Shown: positions 1-61,786 of the stretch, piece after piece
Layout: each line of letters starts with the position of its first letter
How positions within the stretch are numbered: position 1 is the stretch's first letter
From: Cellulosimicrobium marinum
GTDB taxonomy: Bacteria; Actinomycetota; Actinomycetes; Actinomycetales; Cellulomonadaceae
DNA length: 64,000 nucleotides
NCBI RefSeq assembly: GCF_020551945.1
Contig: NZ_JAJBZH010000007.1
Location: forward strand, 51,914-115,913
Direction of reading: 5' to 3'
The notes under the pieces: model-generated
The model's database searches: none
The model's input: only the letters and a program-made list of their open reading frames with translations
Told to the model about the DNA's origin: nothing
Program-made: the position numbers and the translations under genes

Positions 1-206
1 CGGGTCTACCATCCGCCGCTCGTGCCTCGCGGCTCCCGCCAGACCCGCCACGACCCGCGACGTCCCGCCCCGCCCCACCCGCTCGTGCCTCGCCGCTCCC
101 GCCAGTCCCGCCACGACCCGCGACGTCCCGCCCCGCCCCACCCGCTCGTGCCTCGCGGCTCCCGCCAGTCCCGCCACGACCCGCGACGTCCCGCCCCGCC
201 CCACGC
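1..206. repeat. Structured repeat element, copy A, with 63-bp tandem partial copies
   Basis: Units beginning GCTCGTGCCTCG recur at 18, 81, 144 and (degenerate) 207, giving a 63-bp period. The first unit is the 3' part of a full element whose 5' stem runs off the window edge: CGGGTC (1-6) can pair with GACCCG (52-57). Between them lie TACCATCC, an inner hairpin GCCGC (15-19)/GCGGC (29-33) with loop TCGTGCCTC, and CTCCCGCCAG. Later units lack the 5' stem and TACCATCC. The same element occurs at 36879-36983 and 60477-60557. The 63-bp period keeps reading frames open on both strands, but no gene is supported here. Confidence 0.9.
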
Positions 207-219
207 GCTCGTCCGCCGT

Positions 220-282
220 GCCGAGGTAGAACCCTGGTTGGTCGAGGTAGAGCTCTGGTCGGTCGAGGGAAAGCGCTGGTCG
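220..282. repeat. Three imperfect 21-bp tandem repeats
   Basis: Three 21-bp units start at 220, 241 and 262, with the core GTCGAGGTAGAGCTCTGGT and substitutions between units. They sit between the structured repeat cluster and lplA. A related 20-bp pair (core GAGGTAGTACCGAGGT) follows the other intergenic structured element at 37095-37135, and a single related copy lies at 9702-9718. Function unknown. Confidence 0.75.
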
Positions 283-323
283 GGTCGGGGCGACGGCGGG
301 GAGGTGCCGTGCGCCGTCGGGCA

Positions 324-36878: not shown

Positions 36879-36983
36879 GCGGGTCCTGCGGAGGTGAGGA
36901 CGGGTCTACCATCCGCGGGGCTCGTCCCGCGCCCCGCTCCCGCCAGTCCCACCACGACCCGTCCTCACCTCCGCAGGACCCGC
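36879..36983. repeat. Structured repeat element, copy B
   Basis: A 28-bp perfect outer stem (36879-36906 with 36956-36983) closes a 49-nt loop. The loop starts TACCATCC. It contains an inner 7-bp hairpin GCGGGGC (36915-36921)/GCCCCGC (36931-36937) with loop TCGTCCCGC. It then has CTCCCGCCAGTCCC and ends CCAC. Copies A and C share the unpaired segments, while both stems mostly differ in sequence but stay paired. Located between the convergent leuD and LLM genes, where it could also terminate transcription. Confidence 0.92.
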
Positions 36984-37094
36984 CCGTGACGGGGTCGCCG
37001 ACAGCGGGGTGCTGCGCGGATCAGGTCCGACGGCGGTCCTCGCCGTGGGCGTCCGGCGCTCGCCCACGGGCGGGCGAGGTGCCGCACCAGGCTG

Positions 37095-37135
37095 CGCGAG
37101 GTAGTACCGAGGTCGCGCGGGGTAGTACCGGGGTT
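37095..37135. repeat. Pair of 20-bp GAGGTAGTACCG repeats
   Basis: Two adjacent 20-bp units read GCGAGGTAGTACCGAGGTCG and, with a few changes, GCGGGGTAGTACCGGGGT. They abut the stop codon of the LLM oxidoreductase gene (minus strand). A related copy abuts the ybaK stop, and a diverged triplet lies at 220-282. Confidence 0.75.
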
Positions 37136-60452: not shown

Positions 60453-61786
60453 CGTTCCTCCTCCGGGCCCGTCCGGGGACGTGGGGCCGCGTCTTCCATC
60501 CGCTCGCTCGTCCCTCGCGAACTCCCGCCAGGCCCGCCACGACGCGGCCCCACGTCCTCTCCCGTGCCCTCGGTGGGCGTCGCACCGCCGCGTCGTTCGA
60601 GGTGGCCGACGGCGGTCGTCCCCTCGGCGGTCGTTCCGCCGGCCGCGGCGGTGCGGTTGTGCTCGAGCAGCTCGGCCGCGGTCATCTCGCGGATCGAGGA
60701 GTCCTGGGGGCCGAAGCGGCGCACGAGGGACTGCACGGCGGGGATGATCCCGTCGGGCATGAACAGCACGACGACGCCGAGCAGGATCGCGGTCGCGACC
60801 AGGTGGAACTGGGTGTCGCCGAACTCGAGCTTGAAGTACTCGAGGCCCGTGCCGACGACGAGGGCGCCGAGCAGAGGTCCGAACAGGTGCCGCACGCCGC
60901 CGAAGAGGGCCATGAGCACCATGTAGGAGCCGAGCATGATCGAGAACTGGAAGATCGGGTCGAGATCGCCGAACCACAGTGCGTACATGCCGCCGGCGAG
61001 GCCGGTGAAGGTGGCCGAGACGACGTAGGCGACGAGCTTGTAGTTGCGCGTCGGGACGCCCAGGGCCTGGGCCTTGTCCTCGTCCTCGCGCACCGCCTTG
61101 AGGCCGGTGCCGAAGCGCGAACGGTCGATCGCCCACCAGACGAGCAGCATGACCGCGAGCAGCGCCGCGAACAGGTAGAAGAACACGCGGTGGTGCTCCG
61201 GCCGCAGGAGGTCCGGGAACGGGCGCGGGACGACCAGGCCGTCCGAGCCGCCCGTGAACGAGCCCCACGCCTGGAAGACGAGCAGCAGGATGAGCACGAA
61301 CGCGATGGACACGATGACGAACGACGCCCCGCGCACGCGCAGCGCCGCGATGCCGAGCGGGATCGTGATGACGAGGACGATCGCGCCGGCGAGGAGCCAG
61401 GCGACGAAGCTCGGCAGGCCCAGGTCGCGGATGAGGATGCCGGTGCCGTACGCGCCCAGGCCGAAGAAGGCGGCGTGGCCGAGCGAGACGTACCCCGTGA
61501 AGCCGCCCATGAAGTTCCAGGCGGTCGCGGTGCAGGCATAGCTCGCGACGACGATGCCGGCCGAGAGGATGTACGCGTTGGGCGCCATCGTCGGGAACGC
61601 GAGGACGAGCGCGACCCCCACCGCGAGCGCGGCGAGCCGGGCGACGCGCACCCATGGGCGCCGGGCTCCGGGGGACGGGGGAGCGGTGGTCGCCCGGGCG
61701 CCGTCGGAGTCGTCCCGTGGCGACGTCGTGCCCGTGGGACGACCCGTGGGACCGACCGCAGGACGGGTGTCAGAAGCGTTGCGCAA
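60449..61786 (-). CDS. livM: Branched-chain amino acid-type ABC transporter permease
   Basis: 445-residue permease with about ten helices between residues 47 and 360. Family segments are TATAWNFMGGFTGYVSLGHA, RVRGASFVIVSIAFVLILLL, GLKAVREDEDKAQALGVPTR and FGGVRHLFGPLLGALVVG. The C-terminal ~75 residues are an unusual polar tail. Its last ~35 residues (EDVGPRRGG to TSERMEDAAPRP) are encoded by structured repeat copy C, so the element has extended the protein. It overlaps livG by 4 bp and livH by 17 bp. Confidence 0.93.
   Translation of the reverse strand: MRNASDTRPAVGPTGRPTGTTSPRDDSDGARATTAPPSPGARRPWVRVARLAALAVGVALVLAFPTMAPNAYILSAGIVVASYACTATAWNFMGGFTGYVSLGHAAFFGLGAYGTGILIRDLGLPSFVAWLLAGAIVLVITIPLGIAALRVRGASFVIVSIAFVLILLLVFQAWGSFTGGSDGLVVPRPFPDLLRPEHHRVFFYLFAALLAVMLLVWWAIDRSRFGTGLKAVREDEDKAQALGVPTRNYKLVAYVVSATFTGLAGGMYALWFGDLDPIFQFSIMLGSYMVLMALFGGVRHLFGPLLGALVVGTGLEYFKLEFGDTQFHLVATAILLGVVVLFMPDGIIPAVQSLVRRFGPQDSSIREMTAAELLEHNRTAAAGGTTAEGTTAVGHLERRGGATPTEGTGEDVGPRRGGPGGSSRGTSERMEDAAPRPRTGPEEER
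60477..60557. repeat. Structured repeat element, copy C, inside the livM 3' end
   Basis: GGACGTGGGGCCGCGTC (60477-60493) pairs perfectly with 60541-60557 (17 bp). The 47-nt loop starts TTCCATCC, has an inner TCGC (60504-60507)/GCGA (60517-60520) hairpin with loop TCGTCCCTC, then CTCCCGCCAGGCCC, and ends CCAC. Stem sequences differ from copies A and B, but the loop segments match. It is wholly inside the livM coding region. Confidence 0.92.

Follow-up and report, generated by a model that had tools for sequence, protein, structure and literature searches.

Palindromic elements with conserved loops and locus-specific stems dispersed in Cellulosimicrobium and related actinobacteria

Three loci in the analysed window, a 64,000-nucleotide stretch of Cellulosimicrobium marinum DNA, belong to a family of dispersed palindromic elements of about 80–110 bp whose unpaired letters are conserved and whose stems differ from locus to locus. 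Pairing in these elements is maintained on the complementary strand, which carries a G-rich loop, and not on the printed strand. The structure, the strand asymmetry, the dispersal and the presence/absence polymorphism at orthologous sites are observed directly. The family is apparently undescribed, and it probably represents small non-autonomous mobile palindromes whose recognition depends on how one strand folds.

The sequence-only reading had placed copies at 1-57, 36879-36983 and 60477-60557, and all three are present there (Table 1). The outer stems of 28 bp, 17 bp and, in copy 1, 6 visible bp that it described match the sequence; a 10-N assembly gap lies immediately before the window start, next to copy 1, which takes away most of the left arm of this copy and leaves no more than 6 bp of the outer stem visible. 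Copy 2 combines a perfect 28-bp outer stem with the 7-bp inner stem originally described, whereas the inner stem of copy 3, given as TCGC/GCGA, is in fact 6 bp long with one C.A mismatch, a pair that is intact in the closest relative (G123). The DNA folds in the printed orientation are far better than those of shuffled sequence, with z-scores of -10.2 for 36879-36983 and -4.8 for 60477-60557. A covariance model matches copy 2 at 36891-36971(-) with 93 bits and copy 3 at 60478-60556(-) with 84.9 bits, both copies having themselves gone into building the model; the incomplete copy 1 scores 66.4 bits. The element is a frequent point of breakage in contigs and scaffolds (contig ends in G116, G249 and G000, gaps at L027 and L046, the latter with a poly-G run and 10 N directly before copy 1), probably because of the repeats and the strong hairpins.

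Table 1. Coordinates of element copies and associated repeats in the window.
Feature	Position	Strand	Basis
Copy 1, core intact, left arm cut by the assembly gap just before the window	1..57	-	sequence, model match
3' half of copy 1 repeated in tandem, 3.1 copies with a period of 63	16..212	.	repeat analysis
Three 21-bp repeats CGAGGTAGAACCCTGGTCGGT adjoining copy 1	222..283	+	repeat analysis
Copy 2, outer-stem arm, 28 bp, perfect	36879..36906	-	sequence and DNA fold
Copy 2, first conserved strand of the internal loop, TACCATCC (reads GGATGGTA on the presumed structural strand)	36907..36914	-	sequence, alignment column conservation
Copy 2, inner hairpin GCGGGGC-TCGTCCCGC-GCCCCGC	36915..36937	-	sequence, alignment, covariation
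Copy 2, second conserved strand of the internal loop, TCCCGCCAGTCCCACCAC (reads GTGGTGGGACTGGCGGGA on the presumed structural strand)	36938..36955	-	sequence, alignment
Copy 2, second outer-stem arm, 28 bp	36956..36983	-	sequence and DNA fold
Extra motif GTCGnCTC(G/A)CC, approximate copy, after the outer stem of copy 2	36988..36999	-	motif search
Pair of 21-bp repeats GGTAGNNCCNNGGT, a repeat that accompanies element copies	37100..37134	+	sequence comparison
Copy 3, outer-stem arm, 17 bp	60477..60493	-	sequence; covariance-model match
Copy 3, core: TTCCATCC, inner hairpin GCTCGC-TCGTCCCTC-GCGAAC, TCCCGCCAGGCCCGCCAC	60494..60540	-	sequence, alignment
Copy 3, second outer-stem arm, 17 bp	60541..60557	-	sequence and fold

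The core pattern CCATCCGC-N(4-30)-CTCCCGCCAGNCC has 53 exact matches in the 3.83-Mb genome, against 0 for a backwards-pattern control. In the printed orientation, the consensus begins with an outer arm, commonly 14–40 bp long and different at every locus, followed by T-N-CCATCC, an inner stem of 5–7 bp that begins with GC and ends with GC, the apical loop TCGTNCCTC, the strand TCCCGCCAGRCCCRCCAC and the second outer arm. On the structural strand the unpaired signature reads GTGGYGGGYCTGGCGGGA, apical GAGGNACGA and GGATGGTA. In many copies the outer stem is followed, at an almost constant spacing, by the motif GTCGnCTC(G/A)CC. Actinomyces, Isoptericola and Cellulosimicrobium share a second subtype of outer stem, which contains a small internal loop (GGTGCTCGGGC ... 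GCCCTTCGCATCC and variants). Two distant members (L363, L364) keep both internal-loop strands without the apical loop, which marks the wide internal loop as the most conserved part of the element. A 21-bp repeat, CGAGGTAGAACCNTGGTCNG, often in tandem, accompanies hairpin copies (222-283 and 37100-37134 in the window, and the flanks of many others); around 54 copies it was counted 30 times at distances of up to 350 bp and 6 times beyond that distance in the same loci. Some elements form inverted pairs, one on the printed strand followed by one on the opposite strand about 60–240 bp away (L003 in ligD, L027, L037 and L311/L312), an arrangement that recalls REPIN doublets.

The covariation of stems around constant loops, first noticed in the three copies of the window, extends to 54 copies from several genera. 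Paired cells make up 83.5% of the stem alignment, against 60.7% after shuffling, and the covariation score of 0.459 compares with 0.131 for shuffled alignments and was reached by none of 500 shuffles. When stem partners are slid by 1–3 columns, the score falls to 0.08–0.13. Changes on both sides are seen in 20 of the 23 stem pairs. This covariation supports the original proposal of selection on, or formation through, secondary structure.

Mismatches in the outer stems reveal which strand keeps its fold. A fold can accommodate G.T pairs but not A.C pairs, so the strand whose fold matters is expected to show G.T. Across 119 non-redundant copies, the printed orientation displays 77 A.C against 21 G.T mismatches, with more A.C at 47 loci and more G.T at 11. 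The excess persists when each locus of this genome is represented by one copy (33 to 9 in favour of A.C, P = 0.0003) and in the other genera alone (16 against 5 in the same direction, P = 0.027). It follows that the fold is kept on the complementary strand and not on the printed strand used in the sequence-only reading, on which A.C is about four times as frequent as G.T. The asymmetry holds in the main classes of neighbour-gene orientation, including ++ tandem copies (24 A.C against 9 G.T on the printed strand), and among in-gene copies for which the printed strand is also the coding strand the count is 22 A.C against 2 G.T, orthologues included. Being the same whatever the direction of nearby genes, it is not a by-product of their transcription. 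It is also present in distal arms. Replication-strand bias was rejected as its cause: 13 copies in the complete genome G114 have the printed strand as leading strand and 9 have it as lagging strand, on the assumption that the contig starts at the origin.

The element occurs in all 17 sampled Cellulosimicrobium genomes, every sampled species of the genus included, and in five genera of the family, with a few copies to dozens in those other than Cellulosimicrobium. It also reaches other families, that of Actinomyces among them. At the level of the order, a covariance-model search found the element in at least 15 of the 110 sampled genera, as judged from the best 11 or fewer candidates scored per genome. 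Named hosts include Luteimicrobium, Isoptericola, Antribacter, Pseudactinotalea, several Actinomyces and one Jatrophihabitans metagenome bin. The copies found so far are confined to Actinomycetota. The phage, plasmid and viral-contig collections searched contain no match, and an origin in phages or plasmids was set aside on this ground.

Orthologous sites in the 17 Cellulosimicrobium genomes are found in a range of states: intact, lacking the inner hairpin, reduced to one arm, represented by a plain palindrome, or without any trace. Some empty sites retain a plain hairpin, and in ligD of G126 a palindrome persists without the element. Sites with the left arm only occur in the biotin carboxylase gene and at the 60477 locus, and several of them retain element-proximal stem letters, which makes them look like deletion products. 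The comparison of orthologous sites revealed no clean insertion boundary or target-site duplication. Some orthologous intergenic sites carry different subfamilies in different species. An apparent flipping of the element in ligD is instead explained by two ancestral copies, of which lineages have retained one or the other. In orthologous copies both arms change together, which needs selection in place, template switching or replacement. Some species contain dozens of near-identical 71-bp copies within a unit of about 220 bp, as seen in G114/G115, pointing to recent amplification in those species.

Across the family, palindromic elements of unrelated kinds recur in both linkers of the HrpA helicase gene, which are hotspots for them. 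A second palindrome family (L377, L379, L380, L384-L395, all in Isoptericola), with the core GTCAAGCCGTAGCGGAGGGCCCCCTGGGGCCCGTGAGCGA and site-specific arms of up to 32 perfect bp, is found in both hrpA linkers and has the same layout as the present element, a conserved core between arms that vary between sites. Among 18 Isoptericola, hrpA linker 1 holds the present element in G143 and a degenerate copy of it in G148, a palindrome with the GTCAAGCCGTAGCGGAGGGCCCCCTGGGGCCCGTGAGCGA core in three genomes, a third kind in three more, and no palindrome in the remaining ten. The third type, GAGTTGTCAG...CTGACAACTC, was observed in the Isoptericola hrpA linker (L369, L371, L373) and twice near copA (L071).

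Copies are inserted in either orientation, both between and inside genes. With neighbourhoods taken from a simple codon-usage gene caller, 19 copies in this genome lie between convergent genes, 24 between tandem genes and 8 inside long ORFs. Divergent promoters are avoided (0 of 43 intergenic copies in this genome, 5 of about 133 in other genomes), and many copies lie 15–100 nt downstream of stop codons. Among the tandem copies of this genome, 16 have their G-rich-loop strand antisense to the two flanking genes and 8 have it sense. Genes that host copies include hrpA, ligD, copA and biotin carboxylase, with insertion in inter-domain linkers; relative to Pfam domains, the copies in copA separate the HMA domain from the ATPase domain, those in the biotin carboxylase gene follow the biotin carboxylase C domain, and those in hrpA fall within the DUF3418 region. 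A typical core leaves five of the six reading frames without a stop codon, and a peptide of the form ...KGVAGLAGAxRGTSGADGSP... recurs from G-rich-loop-strand copies in copA, an ABC ATPase, hrpA and an Actinomyces gene. No coding claim is made for copy 3 and L033, where the reading frame of the overlapping ORF is doubtful. The same genes are struck at different sites or in different orientations in different genera, and the copy in hrpA linker 2 is constant in position and orientation across several genera. In some species the right arm and the downstream motif are tandemly duplicated within the coding linker of the biotin carboxylase gene (L332, L334, L335).

A mobile palindrome without a gene of its own is the best reading of these observations: it explains the fixed loops and free stems, the strand asymmetry, the two orientations, the coding insertions, the patchy spread and the recent bursts. 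Of the three options offered by the sequence-only reading, a structured RNA, a protein-recognised hairpin and a mobile hairpin, the last fits best, given the insertion in either orientation and inside genes and the sites that are empty in relatives. A trans-acting enzyme might recognise the G-rich-loop strand in its folded state, either as single-stranded DNA or in the form of an RNA intermediate, and copy or insert that strand. If recognition needs only the shape and the loop letters, the arms would be free to drift by paired changes over successive rounds, and G.T pairs on the G-rich-loop strand would be tolerated and inherited through rounds of movement, where A.C would not. After insertion, template switching during replication probably helps to keep the arms matched, and the avoidance of promoters together with five open frames out of six may let inserted copies persist. 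A search of this genome for Y1_Tnp/RAYT (PF01797) gave 0 matches while detecting its positive controls, and no transposase-like gene recurs next to the copies. A shared neighbour gene as the mobiliser was rejected, the recurrent neighbours being housekeeping genes (ABC transporters, hrpA, copA, gyrBA, ilvD). We suggest, tentatively, that the elements may form a new class of mobile hairpins, to which one or more further families built alike and sharing the hotspot would belong, moved by a non-RAYT enzyme that would read the shape of single-stranded DNA (or RNA) and leave the stems free; such shape-addressed elements would have spread through the order that includes Cellulosimicrobium and Actinomyces.

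Against mobility, some sites are old, such as hrpA linker 2, which also fits a conserved function in place. With such sites conserved between genera, the main rival is a functional structured RNA, acting in trans or in cis from the G-rich-loop strand, with each copy under selection. It would account for the strong covariation and the conserved unpaired letters across genera, for the strand asymmetry of mismatches, for the recurrence of some copies at one gene across several genera and for the further motif just beyond the outer stem. It is nevertheless rather unlikely, as the copies have no consistent gene orientation (16 antisense to 8 sense among tandem copies), reside within coding linkers on either strand, are frequently lost in related species and match no Rfam family, and an RNA of this kind would not normally be expected in dozens of copies per genome. 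Conservation for stopping transcription, as intrinsic terminators or hairpins at mRNA 3' ends, agrees with the many copies past stop codons and between convergent genes, with the lack of copies between divergent genes in this genome and with the plain hairpins retained at some empty sites. The fold kept on the G-rich-loop strand argues against it, since ++ tandem copies are constrained on the strand opposite to the mRNA of the upstream gene. Together with the copies inside genes, this stem constraint largely refutes the terminator reading; neither the conserved loop letters nor the wide internal loop is needed for termination, and the explanation is highly improbable.

The remaining alternatives concern the origin of matched arms. 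The sequence-only reading had suggested that a hairpin enters beside a native arm and copies this flanking DNA into a new inverted repeat. The outer arms are indeed locus-specific and perfect over up to 28–32 bp, also in the second family at the same hotspot, and some relatives without the element retain one arm only. These one-arm sites keep element-proximal stem letters, however, and thus look like deletions, and the asymmetry in the distal arms is unexpected if arms were born perfect and then drifted neutrally; such fold-back insertion appears quite improbable. Alternatively, the elements might be passive palindromes, old insertions without present function or mobility whose arms are kept complementary mainly by template switching. 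Two studies document that template switching homogenises the arms of inverted repeats, coding genes included, and creates compensatory changes (PMC8604942, PMC8794818), and the element-less palindrome in ligD of G126 is consistent with such persistence. Passive maintenance leaves unexplained the conservation of loop letters between bacterial families, the strand asymmetry and the recent amplification, and is improbable as the main explanation.

The original reading knew of no described family with this layout, and the searches made here agree with it. No Rfam covariance model scores above its gathering threshold, the only hits being long-stem miRNA artefacts far below it; the Actinomyces-1 RNA motif gave no match; and a search of the open-access literature found no paper describing the family. 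The covariance model explains long GC-rich hairpins otherwise annotated as terminators, along with some assembly breaks. With natural copies in the hundreds, and occupied as well as vacant sites among close relatives, the way in which the elements move, the retention of one strand's fold and the tolerance of insertions in linkers become testable.

In integron attC sites, one folded strand is recognised by its shape and a few unpaired letters, and the stems are variable. The likeness to the present elements is one of principle only, as no attC consensus, cassette arrays or integron context is seen here, and membership is not claimed. Bacterial MITEs such as ERIC, RUP and Correia are short non-autonomous repeats with terminal inverted repeats, usually without genes (PMC2229807). 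The present elements are likewise short and non-autonomous and have no gene of their own. MITE copies share the letters of their terminal repeats, whereas the outer arms here differ between loci and are shared only in the recently amplified unit of G114/G115. REP, BIME and REPIN sequences are extragenic palindromes, sometimes in inverted pairs, with compensatory changes in their hairpins and a proposed recognition of single-stranded DNA hairpins (PMC3116915). Compensatory hairpin changes are shared with REPINs; unlike REP/REPIN sequences, the present elements occur in a genome without a Y1_Tnp/RAYT gene, are larger, possess a wide asymmetric internal loop and stems unique to each locus, insert inside genes and are mostly single, with a few inverted pairs 190–240 bp apart (L027, L037). 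The palindromic elements of Rickettsia (RPE) and Wolbachia are dispersed palindromes of about 100–150 bp, with several families per genome; they are inserted between genes and also, in frame, within genes for conserved proteins (PMC2229807, PMC10969869). As with RPE, the palindromes described here are dispersed between genes and in-frame within them; compared by layout, they differ from the Rickettsia and Wolbachia elements in belonging to a different phylum, in having locus-specific arms and a conserved unpaired core, and in keeping their pairing on one strand. Palindromes that code for protein have been known chiefly in Rickettsia and Wolbachia, and the present family provides a shape-conserved counterpart in free-living and host-associated actinobacteria.
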